Source of the DNA: Phycisphaerales bacterium
Lineage (GTDB): Bacteria > Planctomycetota > Phycisphaerae > Phycisphaerales > UBA1924
Direction: 5' to 3'
Assembly (NCBI GenBank): GCA_020853975.1
Contig: JADYXW010000050.1
Location: 1-64,000, forward strand
DNA: 64,000 bases
Part shown: in pieces, positions 49,232 through 63,496 of the stretch
Layout: the number at the start of each line of letters is the position of its first letter
Numbering within the stretch: position 1 is the stretch's first letter
Made by a program: the position numbers and the translations under genes
Notes under the pieces: model-generated
The model's database searches: none
Told to the model about the DNA's origin: nothing
Seen by the model: the letters and a program-made list of their open reading frames with translations, nothing else

Positions 49232-52200
49232 ATGAACACCAACGCATCGCTCTCCCTCTCCACCCTCGTGCTCCTCGCGTGCGCGGGCGCCGCGCTCGCG
49301 CAGACACCGGCCGTAACCCTCCAGCCCGCCCTGGCCCGGCCCGCCGCCGCCACGCCCGCCACGCCCGCCACGCCCGCCACGCCCGCGCAACCAGAGTCAG
49401 CCGCGAGTGACGAGGGCGAGCCCGCTGCGGCCGACGCGCAGCCCGGTACGCCCGGCGGCGCAGCCAAGCCCGCCGGCGACACGCCCACCAAGGCCCAGCT
49501 CGATCAGCTCCGCAAGGAGTACGACGCACTCTCGCCCGACGACCGGGAACGCATGCTCGCGTACTACGCCGACATGGGCCTGAACCTCGACGAGGCCCTG
49601 GGCCTCGCCGCGGAGCGCGGGGCGCAGGCAACCCGGGGCCAGCAGATCACGATGGCGATGCAGCCGATGGACTTCACCCGTTCTCCCGCGGCAGTGCTCG
49701 GAGCCCGCGCGCGGCTCGGCTTCGGGCAGGTCGCGCAGCCCAACGCCGACGTCGCCCCGCCCCCGGACGTCGCGAAGTGGGTTCATACCAACGTCCTCGC
49801 GGGCGAGTGGGGTGTGCTCGGGAGGTTCCTCGCCTCCCGCCCTGCCCCGGAGGCCGAGGCAGTCTTCGGCTTCATCGTGCAGACACTCGGACGGGGCGAC
49901 GCGGGTCTCCTCCCCGAGGAGGTCCTCGCCTTCGCCGAGGCCTCACCCGGAGAGTTCAAGCCGTGGCAGATGGAAGCGCTGGGGAATATGCTCCAGAAGG
50001 CCTCGTCCAAGAGCAGCACCGGCGCGATGATGGAACGTCTGCGCGCGGGGACCACGTTCTTCGGTTCCGCCGACGCCGCCCGCCGCGCCCGCACCGTTGA
50101 GTTCCTCGCCAACGCGGGCCTCGTACGCGAGGCGTACGAGTTCCTGCCCTCGCTGGAAGAGGCACGGGCCGGGGGCCGCGCCGAAGACCTGCTCGTGCAC
50201 TCCCGCTACAAGTCCGCGCTCGCCGCGGACGCGGGCCAAGGCCTCGCCGCCGAGTCTCTCAGGCGAGAGGCCTGGGAGCTCGCCTCGCAGACAGCCCTCG
50301 TCGAAGGTGCGAAGTTCGAGACCCGCCGCGAGGCGCTCAGGCTCGGCATCGAGGGGCTGAACACCGTCCCCCGCACCAGCACCACCTCGTGGCTGCGTCA
50401 GGTCTTCGCGAGCGACTCGCTGGGCCCCGTCGCCCTCGAGCTCATGGCCCTCCGAGCCGCCAACATCGGGGACGCCAAGCAGGACGTCGCGGAGCGTGCC
50501 CAGGCCATCCTCACCCTCAAGGAAGGCATCGACGTCCTTCTCGAACGCGAGAGCGTGGACACCTCCGCCCTCCGCGTCCCGCTCCGCGTGCTCACCTCGG
50601 CCCTGGTCAACGAAATGGAGCAGACCGCCCAGGCCCGTGGCCAGCAGCGCGTCGTCGCGCGCGAGGCCCAGCTCCTGCTCCGCGCCATCCCCAGCGAGAA
50701 GTGGCTCTCCTCGCTCGAACCGAGCCTCGCCATCCGCGCGCGGCGCGCCTCCATCGCCATCGCCACCACCGCAGACGAGATCGACCTGGCCCTGGCCCTC
50801 ACGCGCGCCGCGAACCAGGCCCTCCCCTCCGAGGCCGCCGGCACCGCCAACCACTTCCTCGAGTGCTGGGAAAAGCGCCTGAACCCCGCCCCCGACGAGA
50901 ACGATCAGCAGTTCATGTTCTACTTCTACTACCGCGAGTTCCTCCCCATGGCGCCCCTCACGCGTGGACGTCAGCAGCGCAACCTCGACCGGCTCGCCGC
51001 CCTGATGAGCGACCTCCAGAGCCTCGGTGCGGACCCCGCCAAGCTCCCCGGCGTCGTCGCCACCTTCAGGGCCTGCCACGCCAAGACCGAGGTCTACCAG
51101 CGCGCCGACATCGAGCGCGTCCTGGGCCCGCTCCCCTCCCTCCCGGCACCCACCGCCATGGGCCTGGCCCGGACCATGGCCGCCGGCCTCAACGGCGACT
51201 GGCGCAGCCGCCAGGCACAGCGCTCCACGGGCGCCAAACGCACCGACACCGAGATCGCCGCCATGGTCGACAAGGGCTATGGCCTGGCGCTCGAGCTCGC
51301 CGACGCCGCCATCGCGCGAGAGCCCGGCGAGTGGAAGAACGCCGCCACCCGCGCCGCCATCGCCTACGACCGGATGCAGTACCTCCAGTCGCAGGGCCGG
51401 GTCACAGACCCCGCGAAGCAGAATGAGTACCGCAAGGAGGCCTTCGAGGCGTTTGCACGCGCCGCCGATCGCTACGGCACCGCCATCTCCGAAGGCCTGG
51501 AGCGCGACGACCCCTCGATCTATCGACGCTGGTTCGGCGCCGCCATGGGCACCGCGGAGCTCAACTTCCTCCGCGTCGACGACCTCCCCAAGGAGGGGAC
51601 GCTGCAGGACGACCAGGTGGACCTTGTCCGCAAGGCCATGACCGGCCTCCCGCAGGAGGCCGCCGACCGACACCTCGCCGCCTTCGCCGCCGACATCCAG
51701 GCCGCCGTCGAACGCGCCGAGCCGGAGGTCAAGCCCCGCCTCGTGAGGCACGCGCTCCGGGTCATCGGCGACCACCCCGCCGGCGCCAGCCTCCGCTCCA
51801 TGGACGAGCTCTACCAGGACCTCGTGAAGAACGAGCTCCGCCTCCGCCTCACCATCGATGGCGACGACCGTGTGGGCGTTGACAGCCCCTTCGGCGTCCT
51901 GGTTTCCCTCCGATACACCAACAGCGTCGACCGCGAGACCGGAGGCTTCTCCAAGTATCTCCAGAACAACGTCTGGGGCCGCGTCGGCAGCCAATACCGC
52001 GAGATCAACTACCGCGATCAGCTCCAGAAGGAGATCGAAAGCTCTCTCTCGAAGAGCTTCGCCGTCGAGTCCCTCGGCTTCTTTGACCCCTTCATGCCCG
52101 CCCGCGGCGTCGTCGAGGACGGCCAGGACGGCTGGAAGGAAAAGCCGATGGCCTACGTCATCCTCCGCCGAAAGGACGCCAGCGTCGACCGCCTCCCCCA

Positions 52201-53113
52201 GCTTGTCGTCGACATGCAGTTCACCGATCAGACCGGCCCCGTCACGCTCGCCGTTCAGAGCAACACTCCTCTGCTCGCTCAGGGTGAGGCCCGCGAGCGC
52301 CGGCCCGTCAACGCCCTCAAGGTTTCCCAGATCGTCGACGTTCGATCCGTTGAGTCCGGCGACGGCACCGTCACCCTCGAGGTCCGCATGGTCGGCGAGG
52401 GGGTCCTCCCCGATGTCCGCGATGTCCTCGCCGGGCTTGACACGCCGCTCGACGGCTACGCCCTCGGCAAGGAGGGCGTCGAGGCACGACCCGCCCTCGT
52501 CCTCCAGGAGGGCTCCGTCGCCACGGGCCGCTTCGGGTGGAGCAACAACGACCCACCCAAGGAGGGCTACCCGGAGCCCGACGACAACGGCATGTACCGG
52601 CTCAAGGTCGAGCGCACCTTCCTGCTGACGTACTCGCGCGGCTCAGGGCCCGTCGGCGCCTCGTTCGCGCTGCCCACGCTCCGGCCCGACCACAAGGCAG
52701 AGCTCGAATCCAGGGCCTACTCAGACCTCGACATCGTCCCCGTGTCCGGCGCCGCGGTCGCCGTCGACGGCGCGTGGTGGACGCCGGCCCGCGCCACGCT
52801 CGCCGCGCTCTTCGCCCTCGTGGCGGCTGCCTTCGCCCGGTGGCTATGGAAGCGCAGGCCCGCGCACGAGCCGCAGGGCGCCTCCTGGCTCGCCCCGGCG
52901 CGCGTCACCCCGCTGGGTGTCGTCACCTCGCTCCGCCGCCTGCGCACCTCCGCGGGCGGCTCCCTGGGTCCGGACCGCGTGATCGAGCTCGACAGGGAGA
53001 TCGCCGCCCTCGAGCTCAAGTACTTCGGCCCCGGCGCCGCCGACGATGGCGGGGCCAGCCTTCGCGAGGTCATCCAGCGCTGGGCGCACGCCTCCGACCC
53101 CCCCAAGCGCTAG
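49232..53113 (+). CDS. 1293-aa exported, C-terminally anchored protein of the MoxR/Bat cluster
   Basis: A very large exported protein: signal peptide ending at ALAQ (about 24), an Ala/Pro/Thr repeat (ATP units, about 40-51), long helical solenoid-like regions up to about 840, then beta-rich domains (about 860-1150) and a single membrane helix near 1180-1200, with a short basic cytoplasmic tail of about 90 residues. The layout (signal, large outer part, late TM) recalls BatD, but the size is much larger and I recognise no domain in the helical part. A Shine-Dalgarno AGGAAG precedes the ATG. It ends the operon, convergent with the NagB fusion (4-bp overlap). Confidence 0.8.
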   Translation: MNTNASLSLSTLVLLACAGAALAQTPAVTLQPALARPAAATPATPATPATPAQPESAASDEGEPAAADAQPGTPGGAAKPAGDTPTKAQLDQLRKEYDALSPDDRERMLAYYADMGLNLDEALGLAAERGAQATRGQQITMAMQPMDFTRSPAAVLGARARLGFGQVAQPNADVAPPPDVAKWVHTNVLAGEWGVLGRFLASRPAPEAEAVFGFIVQTLGRGDAGLLPEEVLAFAEASPGEFKPWQMEALGNMLQKASSKSSTGAMMERLRAGTTFFGSADAARRARTVEFLANAGLVREAYEFLPSLEEARAGGRAEDLLVHSRYKSALAADAGQGLAAESLRREAWELASQTALVEGAKFETRREALRLGIEGLNTVPRTSTTSWLRQVFASDSLGPVALELMALRAANIGDAKQDVAERAQAILTLKEGIDVLLERESVDTSALRVPLRVLTSALVNEMEQTAQARGQQRVVAREAQLLLRAIPSEKWLSSLEPSLAIRARRASIAIATTADEIDLALALTRAANQALPSEAAGTANHFLECWEKRLNPAPDENDQQFMFYFYYREFLPMAPLTRGRQQRNLDRLAALMSDLQSLGADPAKLPGVVATFRACHAKTEVYQRADIERVLGPLPSLPAPTAMGLARTMAAGLNGDWRSRQAQRSTGAKRTDTEIAAMVDKGYGLALELADAAIAREPGEWKNAATRAAIAYDRMQYLQSQGRVTDPAKQNEYRKEAFEAFARAADRYGTAISEGLERDDPSIYRRWFGAAMGTAELNFLRVDDLPKEGTLQDDQVDLVRKAMTGLPQEAADRHLAAFAADIQAAVERAEPEVKPRLVRHALRVIGDHPAGASLRSMDELYQDLVKNELRLRLTIDGDDRVGVDSPFGVLVSLRYTNSVDRETGGFSKYLQNNVWGRVGSQYREINYRDQLQKEIESSLSKSFAVESLGFFDPFMPARGVVEDGQDGWKEKPMAYVILRRKDASVDRLPQLVVDMQFTDQTGPVTLAVQSNTPLLAQGEARERRPVNALKVSQIVDVRSVESGDGTVTLEVRMVGEGVLPDVRDVLAGLDTPLDGYALGKEGVEARPALVLQEGSVATGRFGWSNNDPPKEGYPEPDDNGMYRLKVERTFLLTYSRGSGPVGASFALPTLRPDHKAELESRAYSDLDIVPVSGAAVAVDGAWWTPARATLAALFALVAAAFARWLWKRRPAHEPQGASWLAPARVTPLGVVTSLRRLRTSAGGSLGPDRVIELDREIAALELKYFGPGAADDGGASLREVIQRWAHASDPPKR
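49349..49384. repeat. Four tandem 9-bp units in the 1293-aa protein gene
   Basis: GCCACGCCC repeated four times, coding for repeated Ala-Thr-Pro. A copy-number change would keep the frame. Confidence 0.8.
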
Positions 53114-55914
53114 GCCCCGGGCCTGCCGGCCTGGTCGTCCAGCAGCGAAGCCAGCAGCGCACCCGCGCTCCGCACATCCGCCACGCGCTCTTCACCGCCC
53201 TCGCGCTCGATCACGAGCGCGCCGACCCCCGGCGCACCCGCGAGCAGGTCCAGGAACTCCGACCAGGGAACGCCGCCCTTGCCCGCCGGCGTTTCGGTCC
53301 CCCAGACCCCAGGCCTCGGGGGCGGGCTCGCGTCCTTGATGTGTGCCTGCACGACGTGGGGCAACAGCGCCGCGAGCGCGTCCAGAGGTCTCCCGGTGCC
53401 GTACAGGATCATGTTGGCCGGGTCAAAGTTCACGCCGATCCGCTGCGCTGCGCTCTTCCCCTCGTTCAGCTCCGCCAGGAACGTCAGCAGGTTGGTCGCG
53501 CTCTCCTGCCCCGTCTCGAGCGCCACCCGTACGCCCCGCGCGTTGAACGCGTCCGCAATGGCCCTTGTCCTCCGCACGATCGCCGCCCTCTCCGGGTCCT
53601 TCGCGTCGTGGGGCACGAACCCCGCGTGGAACGTCACGAGCCCGATGTCCAGCGACGACGCGACGCCCGCATTCGCGTGCGCCGCCGCCAGGTTCCTCTC
53701 CCAGGTCGCGTCCGGCCTCACCCCCCCGGTGCGTGCGATCGACTCCAGCGTCGCGTAGTCCTCACCTTCCATCGCCATCATCCCGGACACGACCGCCAGC
53801 CCCGCATCCGCGAGCGCGCGGCGCGTCGCCGAAAGGTCCCACGCCCCCGCGCGGATCGGGTCCAGGTGAAGTTGCACCCCGCCCACCCCGCATTCCTTCG
53901 CCTTCGCCGCCAGGTCCGCCGGCGATGCCGCCCGCAGCGACCACGAGCACACCGCGCGGGGCAGCCTCGCCAGCACCCGCCGGGGCGACGCCGGCTGCGG
54001 CGCCTCCCGGTTCCACATCACAAAGCCCTCGATCGCCTCGTACTCCGCCAGCCCCAGCGCGTCGAACAGCTTCGCCGTCGCCTTGTTCCGGTCCTCCGCA
54101 CGCTGCCAGAACTCCCGCGGGTCGTTCGGCCCCGGGAACAGCGCCCGGTCCTTCTGGCTCTCGTGCTTGAAGATCGCCATCCGCTTCCGCGCCACCTCGT
54201 CCGGCGCCAGCGGCACCGCCATCTGGATCTCCTCCGGCCCCCACTCCTGCCACGCCCCGCGGTACAGCCACACGCGACAGTGCTTCATCCAGTCACGACC
54301 CGCGAGCCGTCTCACGGCCTCCTGCACGATCGCCAGGCACACCCGGTGCGTCCCGTGCGGGTCAGACAGGTCCCCCGCCGCGTACACCTGGTGGGGCTTC
54401 ACCCGCTCCAGGAGCTGCATCGTCACCGCCACGTCCGCCTCGCCCATCGGGTTCTTCCGCACCCGCCCGGTCTGATAGAAGGGCAGGTCCAGGAAGTGGA
54501 TTCTGTCCTCGTGCACCCCGCTGTACCTCGCCGCGGCCCGCGCCTCAGAACGCCTGATCAGCCCCTTCACGCGCTGCAGTTCCGACGCGTCCGCCTGCCC
54601 CGGGGCCTTGCGCCTCAGGAACCCCGAGACCGACTGCTCCATCGACTCCGCGAACTCCCGCCCCAGCGCCGGGAACGCGAGCGCCAGCTCACGCACGAAG
54701 TCCAGGTGCCTCAGCGCGGACTCATCCCACACCGCGATGTCGCCGCTGGTCTGGTACGCCACGTGCACCTCATGCCCCTGGTCGCACAGGCGGATCAGCG
54801 TCCCACCCATCGAGATCACGTCGTCGTCCGGGTGCGGACTGAACACCACCACCCGCTTCGGAAACTCCGCGTCACTCCCGCCCTCGCTCCGGGGCTTGCC
54901 CCCGGGCCACCCCGTGATCGTCCGCGACAGCGTGCGGAACACCTCGATGTTGATGTCATACGCCCCGCCCCGCGCCGACAGCAGGTCCTGCAGCCCGTGC
55001 TCGTTGTAGTCCTCGTCCGTCAGCCTCAGGATCGGCTTGTCCAGCGCCCGCGCCAGCCAGATCGCCGCCCGCATCGTCGTCGCATGGTCCCAGGTGAGCC
55101 CCAGCGGCTCGATCGGTCCCAGCAGCCAGGGCGTCTTGAAGCGCGTCAGCTCCGCCGCCGCCGACTGGTCCAGCAGCACCGTCGCGTTCGGATGCTGCTG
55201 CAGGAACGACGCCGCCACCGACGCCGTCACCTCTCCCTCCACCGCACGCCGGATGATCCCGGCCTTGTGCTCCCCGAACGCCAGCAGCAGCACCCGTTTC
55301 GCGTCAAGGATCGTTCCAACCCCCATCGTGATCGCCTTCCGGGGCACGTTCCACTCGCCGAAGAAGTCGCTCGCCGCGTCCATCCGCGTCACGCGATCGA
55401 GCGTGATCAGTCTCGTGCGGCTGTCACGCGCCGAACCCGGCTCGTTGAACCCCACGTGCCCGGTCCGCCCGATCCCAAGGATCTGGAGATCGATCCCCCC
55501 CGCCTCGCGGATCATCCGCTCATACCGCTGGCACTCCGCCTGCACACTCGCGGGCTCCGCGCCCCCGTTGGGCAGGTGCGCGTGCGCCGGCGAGATGTCC
55601 ACATGGTCGAACAGGTGCTCGTGCATGAACCGGCGATAGCTCTGCGGGCTCTCCGCCGACATCGGGAAATACTCATCCAGGTTGAAGCTCGTCACATTCG
55701 CGAACGACAGCCCGTCCGCCTGGTGCAGCCTCACCAGTTCCTGGTACACGCCCTGAGGGGTGGACCCCGTCGCCAGCCCCAGCACCGCGCGCCTGCCCTC
55801 CGACGCCCGCTCGCGGATCAACTCCGCGATCTGCCTCGCGGCGGACCGGCTGGCGTCCCCGGGGGACGCGAACACGCGGACGGGAACTCGCTCTGTGGAA
55901 TGCGCGGATGCCAT
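53110..55914 (-). CDS. NagB - PIG-L deacetylase - TIM-barrel triple fusion
   Basis: A 934-aa cytoplasmic fusion. Residues 1-265: NagB-type glucosamine-6-phosphate deaminase/isomerase fold (LATGSTP near 48-54, FNLDEY near 77-82, GRTGHVGFNEPGS near 150-162). The catalytic Asp of the usual GxDGHxxFNEP motif is Thr here; the His and Glu stay. Residues about 350-600: PIG-L family N-acetylglucosaminyl deacetylase with SPHPDDD near 353 and the zinc His in DPHGTH. Residues about 650-934: a xylose-isomerase/AP-endonuclease-2 type TIM barrel (GVGGVQLHLDP, LETGQESA, GVNFDPANM). Together they suggest stepwise processing of amino sugars in one chain. A TACTCT box (55922-55927) ends 7 nt before the ATG. 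Confidence 0.9.
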   Translation of the reverse strand: MASAHSTERVPVRVFASPGDASRSAARQIAELIRERASEGRRAVLGLATGSTPQGVYQELVRLHQADGLSFANVTSFNLDEYFPMSAESPQSYRRFMHEHLFDHVDISPAHAHLPNGGAEPASVQAECQRYERMIREAGGIDLQILGIGRTGHVGFNEPGSARDSRTRLITLDRVTRMDAASDFFGEWNVPRKAITMGVGTILDAKRVLLLAFGEHKAGIIRRAVEGEVTASVAASFLQQHPNATVLLDQSAAAELTRFKTPWLLGPIEPLGLTWDHATTMRAAIWLARALDKPILRLTDEDYNEHGLQDLLSARGGAYDINIEVFRTLSRTITGWPGGKPRSEGGSDAEFPKRVVVFSPHPDDDVISMGGTLIRLCDQGHEVHVAYQTSGDIAVWDESALRHLDFVRELALAFPALGREFAESMEQSVSGFLRRKAPGQADASELQRVKGLIRRSEARAAARYSGVHEDRIHFLDLPFYQTGRVRKNPMGEADVAVTMQLLERVKPHQVYAAGDLSDPHGTHRVCLAIVQEAVRRLAGRDWMKHCRVWLYRGAWQEWGPEEIQMAVPLAPDEVARKRMAIFKHESQKDRALFPGPNDPREFWQRAEDRNKATAKLFDALGLAEYEAIEGFVMWNREAPQPASPRRVLARLPRAVCSWSLRAASPADLAAKAKECGVGGVQLHLDPIRAGAWDLSATRRALADAGLAVVSGMMAMEGEDYATLESIARTGGVRPDATWERNLAAAHANAGVASSLDIGLVTFHAGFVPHDAKDPERAAIVRRTRAIADAFNARGVRVALETGQESATNLLTFLAELNEGKSAAQRIGVNFDPANMILYGTGRPLDALAALLPHVVQAHIKDASPPPRPGVWGTETPAGKGGVPWSEFLDLLAGAPGVGALVIEREGGEERVADVRSAGALLASLLDDQAGRPGA

Positions 55915-55921
55915 AATCGAC

Positions 55922-55927
55922 AGAGTA
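55922..55927 (-). promoter_or_regulatory. TANNNT box before the NagB fusion gene (leaderless)
   Basis: Minus-strand TACTCT, 7 nt before the ATG at 55914, no Shine-Dalgarno. Confidence 0.5.
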
Positions 55928-55969
55928 CCGGCGCGCCGCACGTCCGGCGCGGCCGCACCCCCGTCCTAC

Positions 55970-56802: not shown

Positions 56803-56833
56803 ACGGCCGATCGGTCACCCCGGTCGGCCGTTT
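56803..56833 (+). terminator. Probable terminator after rpsD
   Basis: Stem ACGGCCGA (56803-56810) with TCGGCCGT (56824-56831), loop of 13 nt, followed by a short TT. A second hairpin, CCCCGCG/CGCGGGG (56760-56766 / 56774-56780), lies closer to the stop. The T-run is short, so efficiency is uncertain. Confidence 0.5.
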
Positions 56834-56876
56834 GCACTTCCGCCCCGCAACGCCTCGCGCTCTCACGAGATCCACC

Positions 56877-58883
56877 ATGGTCAAGGTCATCCGCAAGTAC
56901 CGCAAGTGGGCGATGGGCATCTTCGGCGTCGTCCTCATCGTCACCTTCCTCTTCACGGGCGCAGGCAACAGCCTCATGGGGGGTGACCCCATGAAGGTCA
57001 CCGTCGCCGAGGTCGGCGGCCAGAAGATCAAGCGCAAACGCCTGCTCGAATCCGAACGCGAGCTCGAAACCCTCAAGTCCCTCGTCCCCGACATCCTCGG
57101 CGCCATCCCAGACCTCAAGTCCGGCGTCCACTGGATGCTCCTCGTCCACGAGGCAGACAAGGCCGGTCTCGTCGGCGAGGCCGGCGATGGCGAGGCCTGG
57201 ACCGAAGAGCTCGCCCAGGCCCGCCTCCTCTACTACGCCGAGAACGAGGTCATGACGGAGTACGCCTCCCTCGCGGACCTGCTCCGCAACAACCCCCAAC
57301 TCCTCCGCAACCTCGCCCTCCAGAAGCTCAACAACTCGCAGTGGCTCTTCTCCACCACCACCAGGGCCGCCGACGACCTCCGCGCCAACAAGGACCTGGT
57401 CTGCCGTCGCATGGGCATCGCGCCCGAAGAGCTCAACCTCGCCCTCGCCCGCCTTCGGGGCGTCCTCCGCCTCGTCACCAGCTACACCGGCGCCTCCGCC
57501 CGCGTCTCCGACGCCTACCTCATCCACCATGCGCGGCGGCTTGTCGAGCCCGCCACCATCGACGCCATCATCATCGAGGCCGATCGCATCCTCGACGAGG
57601 CGCCCACGCCCAGCGACGCCGAGATCACCGCCCAGTACGAGGCGCTCCGCAGCGTCACGCCCGGCACCCCGCCCCACGGCCTGGGATACATCCAGCCCCG
57701 CCGCGTCAAGCTCGAGTGGATGCGACTGAGCCGCGAGGCCATCTCCAAGGCCATCGAGCTCGACCCCGTCGCCGTCCAGAAGCACTACCTCCAGAACCGT
57801 GCCAAGTTCGTCGGCGAGTTCGCCGCAGAGCGTGCCGCGGTCGAAGCAGAGCTCAAGGACGCCCGCATCAAGACCGTTCTTGATCAGTTCGACGCCATCT
57901 ACAAGGCCCGCATCAAGGCCGCCACGCGCCGCCTGCCCGTCGAGGGCAACGTCCGCACCCTCGACGCAACCTGGGCCGCCTCCCAGCCCCGCATGGAAGG
58001 CCTCGCGGCCGATGTCGCCCAGGCCGTCCGCGAAGCCACGGGCGTCAACATGCCCCTTCCCGAGGTTCGCGTCGCCTCAAACTCGTGGACCCGCCTCGAC
58101 CGCGCGGGCTCACTCGAGGGCATCGGCGCCGCGCAGTTCTCCAGCGGCACCCGCGCCGGCAGTTTCCCGGAACTTCTCTCCGGCCTGCACGAGTTCATGC
58201 CCACCGCCAACCTCGGCCTCCAGTCCCGCGTCCCCTTCGACACCATGGTCGCGGGCCGCGAGGGCGACCGCTACTACTTCTGCGTGCTCGACTGGCGCGA
58301 GCAGTCCTCCCCGGACTCGCTCGACGAAGTGCGCGACGACGTCGTGACCGACCTCAAGCGGCTCTGGGCCTACCGCAAGCTCGCCGCCGACCTCCCCAAG
58401 TTCGAGGCCCTGGCCTCTACGAGCGGCCTTGAAGCCGTCGGCAAGCTCTTCGAAACGCCGGCGCAGGGAACCATCCCCGGCAAGCCCGCGATCGACGTCC
58501 AGAAAAACGTCCGCATCACCCGCACCGTCGCGACCACCCAGGACCCGCGCTTCCAGGATGACGCCTTCCGCGCCAAGGTCATGGACCTTGCCGCCAAGGT
58601 TGGCTGGACCACCGCACCCACCCCAGAGAACGCCGCACAGCGCACTCTCAGCGCAGAGCTCCCCGCCGGCCTCTCCGTCGTCGTCTGCCAGCTCTCCTAC
58701 CCCACGCCCCTCACCGAAGAGACCATGCGCATCCTCCGCAACGAGCTGATCAGGGAACTCACCGTCGAAGAGATGCGCCGCACCGGCGGCGCCGACTCCC
58801 CCTTCTCCTTCGAGTCCCTCAAGGCCAGAACCGGCTTCAAGGACCTCGAAGCGCCCAAGGCAGCACCCGCGCCCGCCGCCTAG
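56877..58883 (+). CDS. PpiD/SurA-like membrane-anchored protein
   Basis: A 668-aa protein with one N-terminal membrane helix (about 12-30) and a large helical outer part. The layout (short cytoplasmic start, single TM, SurA_N-type helical region with VAEVGGQKIKRKRLLESER near 42-60) is that of PpiD. I do not see a clear parvulin PPIase domain in the middle, so it may be a chaperone-only form. Long charged helices at about 290-360. The start ATG at 56877 is taken at the membrane anchor. It is followed closely by the C39-like peptidase gene. Confidence 0.75.
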   Translation: MVKVIRKYRKWAMGIFGVVLIVTFLFTGAGNSLMGGDPMKVTVAEVGGQKIKRKRLLESERELETLKSLVPDILGAIPDLKSGVHWMLLVHEADKAGLVGEAGDGEAWTEELAQARLLYYAENEVMTEYASLADLLRNNPQLLRNLALQKLNNSQWLFSTTTRAADDLRANKDLVCRRMGIAPEELNLALARLRGVLRLVTSYTGASARVSDAYLIHHARRLVEPATIDAIIIEADRILDEAPTPSDAEITAQYEALRSVTPGTPPHGLGYIQPRRVKLEWMRLSREAISKAIELDPVAVQKHYLQNRAKFVGEFAAERAAVEAELKDARIKTVLDQFDAIYKARIKAATRRLPVEGNVRTLDATWAASQPRMEGLAADVAQAVREATGVNMPLPEVRVASNSWTRLDRAGSLEGIGAAQFSSGTRAGSFPELLSGLHEFMPTANLGLQSRVPFDTMVAGREGDRYYFCVLDWREQSSPDSLDEVRDDVVTDLKRLWAYRKLAADLPKFEALASTSGLEAVGKLFETPAQGTIPGKPAIDVQKNVRITRTVATTQDPRFQDDAFRAKVMDLAAKVGWTTAPTPENAAQRTLSAELPAGLSVVVCQLSYPTPLTEETMRILRNELIRELTVEEMRRTGGADSPFSFESLKARTGFKDLEAPKAAPAPAA

Positions 58884-58896
58884 CCGCTGCTCCGCC

Positions 58897-59685
58897 ATGC
58901 AGATCAAGCTCGCCATCCAGGCCCAGCCGGACGAGTTCACCTGCGGCCCCGCGTGCCTCTACTCCCTCTACCGCCACTATGGCGACACCGACCTCTCGCT
59001 CCGCCAGGTCATCGAGCAGATCGAACGGCTCGACCATGGCGGCACCCTCATCGAAGTCCTCGCCTGCCACGCCCTCCAGCGAGGATTCCGCGCCACCATC
59101 TACTCCTACCACATCGACCTCCTCGACCCCACCTGGTTCGCGCAGGACGGCGGCGTGCACGACCCCGCCGACGTCATCGCTCGCCTCGCCCAACAGGTCG
59201 CCCACAAGAAGCCCGACCCGCGCTACCGCCTCGCCACCAGGGCCATGCAGCAGTTCCTCCGCCTGGGAGGCGAGCTCCGCATGCAGGACCTCACCCCCGC
59301 ACTCATCAGCGGGCACATCGCGGCCGGCAGGCCCATCCTCGCGGGCCTCAGCGCCACATACCTCCTCCGCACCGCCCGCGAACGCAACGAGACCATGACC
59401 GACGACGACGTGTGCGGCGAACCGCAGGGCCACTTCGTCATGCTCGTCGGCTACACCCCCCGCACCCGCGAAGTCCTCGTCGCGGATCCCCTCGACCCCG
59501 CGCCCCCCTACCACACCGCGACCTACCGCGTGAACGTCGACCGACTCATCAGCTCCGTCATGCTGGGCATCATCACCCACGACGCCAACCTCCTCGTCAT
59601 CACGCCAAGCGGCGCCGACGACCCTCCGCCCGCGCCGCGCGACAAGCCCCGCGCGACCCGCCGCCGCAGGCCCACGCCCAAATAG
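58897..59685 (+). CDS. C39-like cysteine peptidase
   Basis: A 262-aa soluble protein of the C39/papain-like fold. The catalytic Cys is in DEFTCGPACLYS near residue 16, the His in GHFVMLVGY near 180 and the Asp in VADPLDP near 196; order and spacing fit a C39-like peptidase. There is no membrane or ABC domain, so it is the free form. It starts 13 nt after the PpiD-like gene and precedes an ATP-grasp ligase and a GCS2 ligase. In such clusters a C39-like peptidase trims or transfers the ligated peptide. Confidence 0.85.
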   Translation: MQIKLAIQAQPDEFTCGPACLYSLYRHYGDTDLSLRQVIEQIERLDHGGTLIEVLACHALQRGFRATIYSYHIDLLDPTWFAQDGGVHDPADVIARLAQQVAHKKPDPRYRLATRAMQQFLRLGGELRMQDLTPALISGHIAAGRPILAGLSATYLLRTARERNETMTDDDVCGEPQGHFVMLVGYTPRTREVLVADPLDPAPPYHTATYRVNVDRLISSVMLGIITHDANLLVITPSGADDPPPAPRDKPRATRRRRPTPK

Positions 59686-59780
59686 CCCCACCCCGTCGGA
59701 TGCGTCCGCCGACGCGAGACCCACCATCCGGCGTACCGTTCGCCCATCGCACGGCGTGCGTGCAAGCGGCGGGCTCCCCG

Positions 59781-61235
59781 GTGTCGATCCTCCTGATCCT
59801 CGACAACCCCAAGGACTGGCCCCTCAACATCGAGGGCCTCGAGGTCATTTCCTCCCGGAAGTACCTCGCCGACCCCGCCTTCTCCGAGCGCACGCCCCGC
59901 CGCATCTTCAACCTCTGCAAGAGCTACCGCTACCAGACGCTCGGCTACTACGTCTCTCTCCTCGCCAGCGCCCGTGGCCACAAGGCCCTCCCCGACATCA
60001 CCACCATCCAGGACCTCAAGCTCCCGGAGCTCGTCCGCGTCGCCAGCGAAGAGCTCGAGGACGTCATCGCTTCATCCCTCGCCGACGAGCCGGGCGACGA
60101 GTTCACCCTCTCCATCTACTTCGGCCGCAACGTCGAAGAGCGCTTCAACCGCCTCGCGCTCGCCGTCTTCAACCAGTTCCCCGCGCCCCTCCTCCGCGCC
60201 GAGTTCGAAAAGACCGCCGGCAAGTGGCGGCTCGGCAGCGTAAAAACGATCTCCGCCAGCGACGTTCCCCCCGACCATTTCCTCGACGTGCTGAACTTCG
60301 CGACGCAGTACTTCAACCGCCCCCACCGCCGCGCCAAGCAGGAATCCTCCCGCTACGACCTCGCGATCCTCCGCGACCCCTCCGAGCCCAACCCCGCATC
60401 GGACGACAAGGCCATCCGCCGCTTCGTGAAGGCCGCCGAGTCCATGGGCATCGAGGCCGAGATCGTCACCCGCGACGACTACGGCCGCATCGCCGAGTTC
60501 GACGCGCTCTTCATCCGCGACACCACCTCCGTCAACTCCTACACCTTCCGCTTCGCTCGCCGCGCCGCCGCCGAGGGCCTCGTCGTCATCGACGACCCGG
60601 AGTCCATCGTCCGCTGCTCCAACAAGGTCTACCTCGCCGAGCTCCTCCAACGCCACCGAATCACCACCCCCGCCACCCTCATCCTGCACCGCGACAACTG
60701 GGAGAGCGCGCCCGATATCCTGGGCCTGCCCCTGGTCCTCAAGCAGCCCGACAGCGCGTTCTCCCTCGGCGTCGTCAAAGTCAAGACCCGCGAGGAGTTC
60801 GAGCGCGAGGTCGAGCGCCTCTTCAAGGTCTCCGACCTCCTCATCGCCCAGGCCTTCATGCCCAGCGAGTTCGACTGGCGCATCGGCGTCCTCGACAAAG
60901 AGCCCTTCTTCGCCTGCAAGTACTTCATGGCCGGTGGGCACTGGCAGATCCGCGACAAGGACCAGGCCGGCGACGCCGCCTTCGGCGAAACCGAGACCTG
61001 GCCCGTCGCCGCCGCCCCTCCGGACGTCGTCCGCGCCGCTGTCAAGGCCGCCAACCTCATAGGCGACGGGCTCTACGGCGTGGACGTCAAGGAAATCGAT
61101 GGCAAGGCCCACGTCATCGAAATCAACGACAACCCCAACATCGACGCCGGGCACGAGGACAAGGTCCTGGGCGACGAGGCCTACGCCCGCGTCATGCGCT
61201 CCTTCCTCCGCAGGCTCGAAGGCCGAGGCCGCTAG
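59781..61235 (+). CDS. RimK-like ATP-grasp ligase
   Basis: A 484-aa protein: an N-terminal region of about 170 residues (RimK-like pre-domain, ILLILDNPKDWPLNIEGLEV at the start), then a RimK-type ATP-grasp fold with KVYLAELLQRH near 288, LVLKQPDSAFSLGVVKV near 326-342 (glycine-poor loop), a metal-binding EINDNPNID near 449-457 and the ADP-site Lys in VKVKT. The family ligates an amino acid to a carboxyl group using ATP. GTG at 59781 begins the conserved part; an in-frame ATG at 59700 is possible. It is 4 nt from the GCS2 gene and so in one operon with it. Confidence 0.85.
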   Translation: MSILLILDNPKDWPLNIEGLEVISSRKYLADPAFSERTPRRIFNLCKSYRYQTLGYYVSLLASARGHKALPDITTIQDLKLPELVRVASEELEDVIASSLADEPGDEFTLSIYFGRNVEERFNRLALAVFNQFPAPLLRAEFEKTAGKWRLGSVKTISASDVPPDHFLDVLNFATQYFNRPHRRAKQESSRYDLAILRDPSEPNPASDDKAIRRFVKAAESMGIEAEIVTRDDYGRIAEFDALFIRDTTSVNSYTFRFARRAAAEGLVVIDDPESIVRCSNKVYLAELLQRHRITTPATLILHRDNWESAPDILGLPLVLKQPDSAFSLGVVKVKTREEFEREVERLFKVSDLLIAQAFMPSEFDWRIGVLDKEPFFACKYFMAGGHWQIRDKDQAGDAAFGETETWPVAAAPPDVVRAAVKAANLIGDGLYGVDVKEIDGKAHVIEINDNPNIDAGHEDKVLGDEAYARVMRSFLRRLEGRGR

Positions 61236-61238
61236 CCC

Positions 61239-62492
61239 ATGACCTTCCACCTCTTCGAACGCTTCGGCATCGAGATCGAGTTCGCCGTCGTCGATCGCTC
61301 CGCACTCCGTGCCGCGCCCGTCGTCGACCGCCTGCTCCGCGAGGCCGCCTCCCTCCCCAGCGCCCGCGTCGAGTCCGAGAGCGTTCCGGGCTGGCCCGAC
61401 GAGATCTCGCTCGGCCCCATCACCATCGGCAACGAGCTCACCGCTCACGTGCTGGAGTTGAAGGTCTCAGAGCCCGCGCCGACCCTCGACGGCCTCGCCG
61501 ACCACTTCGCCGCCGCCCTCGCCTCCCTCCGCCCCACCCTCGACCACCTTGGCGTCATGCTCCTCCCATCGGGCATGCACCCCACCATGGACCCCGACCG
61601 CGAGATGGTCCTCTGGCCCCACGGCAACTCCGATGTCTACGCCGCCTTCGACCGCATCTTCGGCTGCAAGGGCCACGGCTGGGCCAACCTCCAGTCCTGC
61701 CACCTCAACCTCCCCTTCGCCACCGACGAAGAGTTCGGCCGCCTCCACGCCGCCATCCGCTCGCTCCTCCCCATCATGCCCGCGCTCTCCGCGTCCACGC
61801 CCTTCATGGATGGCAGGGCAACCGGCCTTCTGGACAACCGGCTGGAGGTCTACCGGCTCAACAGCCGCCGAGTCCCGCAGGCCGCGGGGCTGGTCATCCC
61901 GGAACGCGTCTACACCCGCGCCGACTACGAGCGTGTGATCCTGGGCGAGGTCTACGCCGGATACGCCCCCCACGACCCCGATGGCCTCCTCCGCGATGAG
62001 TGGGCCAACGCCCGCGGCGCCATCGCCCGCTTCGGCCGGGGCACGATCGAGATCCGCGTGCTGGACTCGCAGGAGTGCCCCCGCGCCGACCTGGCCATCG
62101 CCTCCACAATCGCCGCCGTCACTCGCGCCATCACCGAGGGGCGTCTGGGCAACGCGCCCGCACTCCGCGCGTGGGCCGTGGAACCGCTCCACCAGGTTCT
62201 CCTCTCCGTCATCCGCGACGCAGACCAGGCTCCCCTCACGCTCACTTCCTACCTCCGCGACCTCGGCTACGCCGGCGCCTGCCCCGCGCCCGCCTCCGCC
62301 GTGTGGGCCGAACTGCTCGACCGCGCACTCGCGGGCAGCCACCCCGCCTGGCGAGCCGACGCCGAGCGCATCCTCGCCTCCGGCTGCCTCGCGCGCCGAA
62401 TCTCCCGTGCCACCCCAACTCCCGCCGACATCCCCGCCACCTATCGCGCACTCGCCGCGTGCCTCGATCGAAACGCCCTCTTCGGCGTCTGA
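61239..62492 (+). CDS. GCS2-family carboxylate-amine ligase
   Basis: A 417-aa protein of the glutamate-cysteine ligase 2 family (glutamine-synthetase-like amidoligases). FGIEIEFAVVD at residues 8-18 carries the metal-binding Glu pair, NELTAHVLELKV near 66-77, SGMHPTMDPDREM near 110-122, and an acidic IEIRVLDSQECPRADLA near 270-286. The family joins two amino acids or amines with ATP; the substrate cannot be read from sequence, so glutathione synthesis is not implied. It starts 4 nt after the ATP-grasp gene. Confidence 0.88.
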   Translation: MTFHLFERFGIEIEFAVVDRSALRAAPVVDRLLREAASLPSARVESESVPGWPDEISLGPITIGNELTAHVLELKVSEPAPTLDGLADHFAAALASLRPTLDHLGVMLLPSGMHPTMDPDREMVLWPHGNSDVYAAFDRIFGCKGHGWANLQSCHLNLPFATDEEFGRLHAAIRSLLPIMPALSASTPFMDGRATGLLDNRLEVYRLNSRRVPQAAGLVIPERVYTRADYERVILGEVYAGYAPHDPDGLLRDEWANARGAIARFGRGTIEIRVLDSQECPRADLAIASTIAAVTRAITEGRLGNAPALRAWAVEPLHQVLLSVIRDADQAPLTLTSYLRDLGYAGACPAPASAVWAELLDRALAGSHPAWRADAERILASGCLARRISRATPTPADIPATYRALAACLDRNALFGV

Positions 62493-62509
62493 CTCCGCCG
62501 GCCCCTCGC

Positions 62510-62515
62510 TACGCT
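62510..62515 (+). promoter_or_regulatory. TANNNT box before the 2-hydroxyacid dehydrogenase gene (leaderless)
   Basis: TACGCT, 6 nt before the ATG at 62522, no Shine-Dalgarno. Confidence 0.5.
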
Positions 62516-62521
62516 CCGCTC

Positions 62522-63496
62522 ATGCCACACGCAGACCCGCCCCTCGTCGCCGTCACGCGGGCCCTTCCAATGCCGCTGGACCTTGGCCCCGCCCGCGTCC
62601 GCCTCGTCGAGGGCATGCGCTCCCTCGCCCGCCCCGCGCTCCTCGATCACGTCCGCGGCGCCACCGTCGTCATCACCTGGGTCTCCGAGCGCGTAGACAA
62701 GGAGTTCCTCGACGCCGCCGGCCCCACCCTGCGAGGGGTCTGCAACTTCGCCGTCGGCACCGACAACATCGACCTCGCCGAGTGCCGCGCCCGCGGCATC
62801 AAGGTCACCAACACGCCCGGAGCGGTAACCGAAGGCACCGCCAACCTCGCCTGGGCGCTCCTCCTCGCCGTCGCTCGCCGCATCGCGGAGGGCGACCGCT
62901 ACGTCCGCAGCGGCCGGTTCGCCTCCGAGGGCCCCCTCGCGCCCGCCGAGTTCCTAGGGACCGACATCACCGGCCGCACGCTCCTCATCGTCGGTGCGGG
63001 CCGCATCGGCTACGCCACCGCGGTCCGGGGTCTGGGCTTCGGCCTCCGCACCCTCTACACCGCCCGCTCCCAGCACCTCGACTTCGAGCTCGCCCCGCTC
63101 TCCGCGCAGCGCGTGCGCCTCGAAGACGGCCTCGCCCGCGCGGACATCGTGAGCCTCCACACACCGCTCACCCCAGAGACCCGCGGGCTCATCAACGCCC
63201 AGCGTCTCGCTCTCATGAAGCCTGGCGCCATCCTCATCAACACCGCGAGAGGTCCCGTCGTCGACGAGGCCGCCCTCGCCGCCGCCCTCCGCGGCGGCCG
63301 CCTCTTCGGCGCGGGCCTCGACGTCTTCGAGAAAGAGCCCGCAGTCCACCCCGACCTGCTGACCCTCGACAACGTCGTCATGACGCCCCACGTCGGCAGC
63401 GGCGAGGCCAAGTACCGCGCCCTCATGGCCTCCATGGCCTGCGCCAGCGCCCGCGCCATCATCGAGGGCACCGAGCCCCCCAACCGCGTCGCCTGA
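62522..63496 (+). CDS. D-isomer-specific 2-hydroxyacid dehydrogenase
   Basis: A 324-aa NAD(P)-dependent oxidoreductase that interconverts 2-oxo and D-2-hydroxy acids (glyoxylate/hydroxypyruvate reductase type). The catalytic Arg is in NTARGPVVDE near 239-248, the Glu in DVFEKEP near 266-272 and the His in TPHVGSGE near 288-295; the nucleotide fold is LLIVGAGRIG near 156-165. Its own promoter box suggests separate expression from the ligase genes, although it lies 29 bp after them. Confidence 0.93.
   Translation: MPHADPPLVAVTRALPMPLDLGPARVRLVEGMRSLARPALLDHVRGATVVITWVSERVDKEFLDAAGPTLRGVCNFAVGTDNIDLAECRARGIKVTNTPGAVTEGTANLAWALLLAVARRIAEGDRYVRSGRFASEGPLAPAEFLGTDITGRTLLIVGAGRIGYATAVRGLGFGLRTLYTARSQHLDFELAPLSAQRVRLEDGLARADIVSLHTPLTPETRGLINAQRLALMKPGAILINTARGPVVDEAALAAALRGGRLFGAGLDVFEKEPAVHPDLLTLDNVVMTPHVGSGEAKYRALMASMACASARAIIEGTEPPNRVA

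Follow-up and report, generated by a model that had tools for sequence, protein, structure and literature searches.

A conserved bacterial cassette of a C39-like peptidase and two amide ligases that may build a small glutamyl peptide or conjugate

Why should two amide-forming ligases of different folds stand beside a cysteine peptidase in a planctomycete genome, and what could the three enzymes make together? The question was raised by an earlier note on the window, that is, the whole 64,000-nucleotide stretch of Phycisphaerales DNA analysed here, in which a peptide or amino-acid conjugate pathway was proposed. The RLAN domain of one of the ligases defines an established Pfam family, and the idea of a RimK-like ligase working with a partner peptidase is already known. 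The amidoligase survey by Iyer et al. in 2009 is said to have placed RimK-like ligases, GCS2 proteins and papain-like peptidases in predicted peptide-synthesis operons. In the open-access literature searched, no experimental work on the cassette or on a bench-tested relative was found. What is added here is the association with an N-formylglutamate-amidohydrolase-like (FGase) gene, the fusion of the two ligases and the statistics of co-occurrence.

The arrangement described earlier, a C39-like gene, an ATP-grasp gene and a GCS2 gene followed by a dehydrogenase, was recovered as four adjacent ORFs in, or close to, the places reported, with Pfam support. Together with the gene upstream, the features are as follows:

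56832-58883, upstream of the C39-like gene: PpiD-like gene (SurA_N_3 match, E 6e-7)
58897-59685, + strand: C39-like (papain-fold) cysteine peptidase, 262 aa, no fused transporter
58942-58944, + strand: codon of catalytic C16 of the C39-like protein
59431-59433, + strand: codon of catalytic H179
59485-59487, + strand: codon of catalytic D197
59781-61235, + strand: RLAN-type RimK-like ATP-grasp ligase, 484 aa, GTG start at 59781
about 59856-60278, + strand: RLAN domain of the ATP-grasp ligase
about 60618-61148, + strand: ATP-grasp domain of the same ligase
61239-62492, + strand: GCS2-family carboxylate-amine ligase (YbdK / plant glutamate-cysteine ligase fold), 417 aa
62522-63496, + strand: 2-hydroxyacid dehydrogenase (family match E 2e-57)

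From the PpiD-like gene to the dehydrogenase the gaps are 13, 95, 3 and 29 bp, the GCS2 start lying 3 bp past the ATP-grasp stop. The contig measures 68.8 kb in a genome of 3.1 Mb. The convergent gene formerly called prepilin-like encodes a 462-aa protein and extends past the window edge; beyond it lies an apparent prolyl-tRNA synthetase gene, named by eye.

Are the three proteins likely to be active enzymes? The ATP-grasp protein matches both RLAN (PF14401, E 7e-45, 152.8 bits against a cut-off of 25) and RimK (PF08443, E 3e-6, 27.4 bits against 21), and profile comparison to structures ranks RimK-type alpha-L-glutamate ligases and LysX first. Residues K282, K321, R367, D435, E447 and N449 are invariant in 81 sequences including that of the window; with K282, K321, D435, E447 and N449 the protein keeps the ATP/Mg-binding residues expected of an active ATP-grasp enzyme, and ATP-dependent amide-bond formation is predicted. 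The GCS2 protein (PF04107, E 8e-29, 101 bits against 21) has E12, E14, E66, H70, E73, N157, R201, R259, R267, E271 and D276 invariant in 70 sequences and retains the GxExE, ELK, HxN and EIRxxD motifs, of which GxExE, ELK and EIRxxD align with YbdK. Its AF2 model (pLDDT 92.5) superimposes on a YbdK orthologue (1tt4, Z 39.8), on YbdK (Z 39.4) and on plant glutamate-cysteine ligase (GCL; Z 35.4), and at Z about 20 on Dop/PafA, which have the same fold; the sequence scores 54.5, under the cut-off of 176.4 for the YbdK subfamily TIGR02050. The third protein matches Peptidase_C39_2 (PF13529, E 2e-9, 38.4 bits against 24), and Pfam and alignment together reveal a complete papain-like Gln-Cys-His-Asp site, in which Q10, C16, H179 and D197 are invariant across 65 relatives. 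The top structural match of its AF2 model (pLDDT 91.8) is phytochelatin synthase Alr0975 (Z 15.8, 2.4 Å over 161 residues), with which C39 peptidase domains are tied at Z 15.5; the phytochelatin Pfam domain gave no match at E <= 1. It does not look like a double-glycine leader peptidase, being a stand-alone protein of 262 aa near which no small ORF recurs beyond close relatives.

Is the neighbourhood an accident? Among 61 related genomes, RLAN was found in 28, GCS2 in 26 and the C39-like gene in 26, all three being present in 25 and none of them in 32. RLAN and GCS2 occur together in 26 of these genomes, RLAN without GCS2 in two, GCS2 without RLAN in none and neither in 33, a weak GCS2 match in G198 (E 4e-4) having been left out of the counts. 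The corresponding Fisher p-values (3e-15 for RLAN with GCS2, 9e-13 for RLAN with C39, and also 7e-15) assume independence between genomes, which does not hold for relatives. Of 294 Planctomycetota genomes sampled, 75 carry RLAN. The patchy presence of the cassette inside one family suggests that it has been gained or lost as a block.

The same arrangement extends well beyond the planctomycetes. When named genomes were scanned with the RLAN alignment, 80 loci came up, spanning about 15 phyla, among them Planctomycetota, Pseudomonadota, Bacteroidota, Spirochaetota, Verrucomicrobiota, Nitrospirota, Ignavibacteriota and Omnitrophota; cultured carriers include Rhodopirellula baltica, Blastopirellula marina, Thiobacillus thioparus, Nitrosomonas communis, Pontibacter and Marivirga. 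A quick RLAN tree, which counts 15 phylum-level groups, together with the named relatives places the window among Phycisphaerales-type Planctomycetota, adjoining a Tepidisphaera bin. The C39-like gene is present at 64 and GCS2 at 69 of the 80 loci, and at 61 the order C39-RLAN-GCS2 is kept on one strand, often with overlaps of a few bases, several of the departures from it sitting on short contigs. Conservation of the triplet across Planctomycetota and Proteobacteria had been set as a check beforehand, and it holds in both, in Bacteroidota and in others. Pairwise distances among the three proteins are correlated (r 0.48-0.72 against a permuted maximum of 0.19), which partly reflects shared species history, and comparison with the nearest relative, G295, shows each of the three genes to be under purifying selection (dN/dS 0.022 for RLAN, 0.117 for C39 and 0.170 for GCS2). 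C39-RLAN-GCS2 is a conserved unit, beyond chance neighbourhood. At eight of the 80 loci, some with full-length flanks, RLAN lacks both partners, so that a separate role of RLAN is possible. The lone RLAN gene of one relative (L142) adjoins an apparent IS transposase and may therefore be the remnant of a broken cassette.

The strongest single argument that both ligases serve one pathway comes from some divergent Planctomycetota, in which RLAN, ATP-grasp and GCS2 are joined in a single chain of about 1000 aa. Such fused ligases were recognized by Pfam at three loci (L162, L163 and L165) and by profile at a fourth (L161); a C39-like gene lies directly upstream of the fused gene in L163 and L165, and an FGase gene directly downstream of it in L165.

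Clustering of neighbouring genes revealed FGase as one more recurrent family, directly 3' of GCS2, and no other family at a fixed position next to the cassette beyond close relatives. FGase (PF05013; the examples scanned gave E 3e-18 to 1e-24) adjoins the cassette at 38 of the 80 loci and is present in 17 of 28 related genomes with RLAN against 3 of 33 without it (p 2e-5); two of these three, at E ~1e-51, match far more strongly and probably represent genuine HutG-type enzymes. A search of the window's own genome found no FGase, so the cassette here represents a minimal form. A fusion of GNAT with a carbon-nitrogen hydrolase occurs by the cassette at three loci, between GCS2 and FGase (L116), adjacent (L139) or convergent (L135).

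The other neighbours of the window's cassette were considered as pathway members and rejected. None of the 80 loci has a homologue of the dehydrogenase or of the PpiD-like gene alongside. Of 20 planctomycete regions, one alone, that of the nearest relative (L145, G295), shows the dehydrogenase next to the cassette, and the PpiD-like gene is seen in that same region and, 1.8 kb off, in L146 (G308) only. The flanking genes to which the earlier note drew attention do exist, the PpiD-like one with its SurA_N_3 match and the convergent, pilin-like one likewise, but they stand beside the cassette incidentally, as does the dehydrogenase, and none of the three belongs to it.

What, then, might the cassette do? 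The reading that we favour, with a little more confidence than doubt, is that the three genes are inherited as one cassette in which both ligases would build a small, probably glutamyl, peptide or conjugate and the C39-like enzyme would process it. One amide, probably at the carboxyl of a glutamate, would be made by GCS2 and a second by the RLAN ATP-grasp ligase on the same small molecule, so that a short peptide of non-ribosomal origin or an amino-acid conjugate, probably with glutamate in it, would result. Trimming, recycling or rearranging this product would fall to the C39-like enzyme as its dedicated peptidase or transpeptidase, in the way that phytochelatin synthase acts on glutathione; where FGase is present, it would cleave an N-acyl-glutamate bond of the pathway by hydrolysis. 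Co-occurrence, gene order, ligase fusion, folds and intact active sites are what the sequences show; that the ligases share one substrate, that this is a small molecule of glutamyl type, and what the peptidase does to it are our inference. The pathway proposed in the earlier note is accordingly kept for the three genes, which co-occur widely and whose ligases are sometimes fused, and is given up for the dehydrogenase, PpiD-like and pilin-like genes. The structural nearest neighbours of the models include glutathione-pathway enzymes, which speaks for the favoured reading. A bolder version of that reading is tentative and rather doubtful: a second glutathione-like system over about 15 phyla, with a new glutamyl peptide, its own peptidase, often an FGase, and the C39-like enzyme as a phytochelatin-synthase-like transpeptidase. 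The parallel with glutathione and phytochelatin lies in logic and fold and does not extend to membership: GCS2 and the ATP-grasp protein score below the glutathione equivalog cut-offs, and the C39-like protein has no phytochelatin-synthase match in Pfam.

The main rival to a small-molecule pathway is reversible protein modification, in which RLAN would recruit a protein, the ligases would add amino acids and the C39-like enzyme would remove them. RimK itself recruits the ribosomal protein S6. A ligase/protease pair of this kind has been described in Pseudomonas, where RimK works with the partner protease RimB (PMC12239564). The ATP-grasp core is nearest to RimK-type glutamate ligases by profile, and since PafA and Dop lie within the GCS2 fold, substrates of the cassette could also be proteins. 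Nevertheless, the whole length of GCS2 matches the small-molecule enzymes YbdK and plant GCL much better (39.8 and 35.4 against about 20 for Dop/PafA), no conserved target gene lies inside the operon, and two ligase folds together with a member of an N-acyl-amino-acid hydrolase family would suit a small molecule better; we regard protein modification as unlikely. It is less probable still that the enzymes handle amines catabolically, GCS2 protecting an amine or amino acid by gamma-glutamylation, the ATP-grasp enzyme extending it and hydrolases releasing the product. C39-like and FGase-like hydrolases do stand alongside the two ligases at many loci, and the GNAT-carbon-nitrogen hydrolase fusion lies in or beside three, but such a role finds no further family fixed beside the cassette beyond close relatives, and the window's own dehydrogenase is not a conserved companion of the cassette.

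Could the product simply be glutathione or gamma-glutamylcysteine, with an unusual ATP-grasp enzyme in the place of GshB? GCS2 plus ATP-grasp follows the logic of GshA/GshB, the fused forms recall bifunctional GshF, and this GCS2 and this RLAN ligase are the sole GCS2 and the sole RimK-domain protein found in the genome. However, every NCBIfam gshA equivalog cut-off is far above the GCS2 score (for example, 23 bits against 249 for gshA_cyano), the ATP-grasp protein scores 27.6 bits against a cut-off of 408 for a glutathione synthetase model, and glutathione synthesis involves no dedicated peptidase. Hosts such as Thiobacillus and Nitrosomonas are, moreover, expected to make glutathione already, and an ordinary glutathione pathway is very improbable. 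Last in probability, and scarcely credible, is a graspetide, a ribosomal peptide modified by the ATP-grasp enzyme and freed of its leader by the C39 peptidase. Both types of enzyme are known in graspetide biology (PMC8939145), but within 1.5 kb of the cassettes the conservation of small ORFs does not reach past close relatives, the peptidase has no fused ABC transporter, and the intergenic gaps of the window leave scant space for a precursor. The RiPP/graspetide reading was rejected because no conserved precursor ORF was found within that distance.

For the favoured small glutamyl product, the breadth of the cassette has practical consequences. Because genomes from Planctomycetota through Bacteroidota to Spirochaetota keep it whole and in the same order, and sometimes fuse the ligases, a specific product is very probable, and because cultured bacteria carry it, that product can be looked for directly. 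The fused ligase offers a single protein for purification, and the FGase partner points the chemistry towards N-acyl-glutamates.

How does the cassette compare with systems already described? The primitive phytochelatin synthase Alr0975 (PDB 2bu3, 6tho) shares with its peptidase the papain fold and the catalytic Cys-His-Asp and ranks first among the structural matches, but identity is 12%, C39 peptidase domains match equally well, and the phytochelatin Pfam domain is not matched. To our knowledge, RimK lacks an RLAN domain and the RimK/RimB operon lacks GCS2. RimK/RimB resembles the cassette in combining an ATP-grasp glutamate-ligase core with a dedicated protease at one locus, whereas RimB is an aspartic retropepsin and the partner here is a cysteine peptidase. 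GshF and GshA/GshB likewise unite GCS-fold and ATP-grasp ligases in one pathway, sometimes in one polypeptide; in contrast, the fusions here put ATP-grasp first, a peptidase is added and the glutathione-model scores fall well below cut-off. A related papain-like group, the DUF3335 (PF11814) C39-like proteins, which are fused to GNAT, has been associated with peptide ligases (PMC10318531); the protein here is without the GNAT fusion and matches PF11814 weakly, below threshold (E 0.026). In the RLAN (PF14401) RimK-like ATP-grasp family, finally, the window's ATP-grasp protein is itself a full-length member.

Between this genome and that of the nearest relative (G295), the ATP-grasp protein of the cassette (59781-61235) shows 98.6% identity, whereas the neighbouring C39, GCS2, dehydrogenase and PpiD-like proteins show 88-92%. 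For the ATP-grasp gene, dN/dS in this comparison is 0.022.

Three further ORFs of the window were considered:

49232-53113, plus strand: 1293-aa protein
53110-55941, minus strand: three-domain ORF of 943 aa
63507-63998, minus strand, running out of the window (L169:108-1496): gene labelled 'prepilin-like' by the earlier note

A scan of the 1293-aa protein against Pfam and NCBIfam returned zero matches. The 943-aa ORF carries glucosamine-6-phosphate deaminase-like, PIG-L/LmbE deacetylase-like and xylose-isomerase-like TIM-barrel domains in one chain. The 'prepilin-like' ORF is the C-terminal portion of a 462-aa protein. Judged by eye, the N-terminus of this protein resembles a GYF_2-type domain, with a transmembrane segment after it.

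Elsewhere, a gene encoding a GNAT-carbon-nitrogen-hydrolase fusion lies inside or adjoining the cassette at three loci:

L116:10775-12340, fusion gene
L135:11387-12970, fusion gene (assigned by sequence resemblance only)
L139:10976-12520, fusion gene

Cassette genes also occur alone. At L142:5966-9191, a solitary RLAN gene adjoins an ORF resembling an IS transposase, and a search of that genome for C39 and GCS2 relatives found none. A cassette-type C39-like gene stands on its own at L141:5677-6891, in a genome where a search for RLAN and GCS2 relatives found none. Members of one planctomycete family, with loci L167:4250-5947 and L168:3748-6347, have the RLAN/ATP-grasp match divided between two ORFs, with RLAN matching over short stretches only. 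In divergent Planctomycetota (loci L161-L163 and L165), single ORFs of about 1000 aa encode an RLAN-ATP-grasp-GCS2 fusion.
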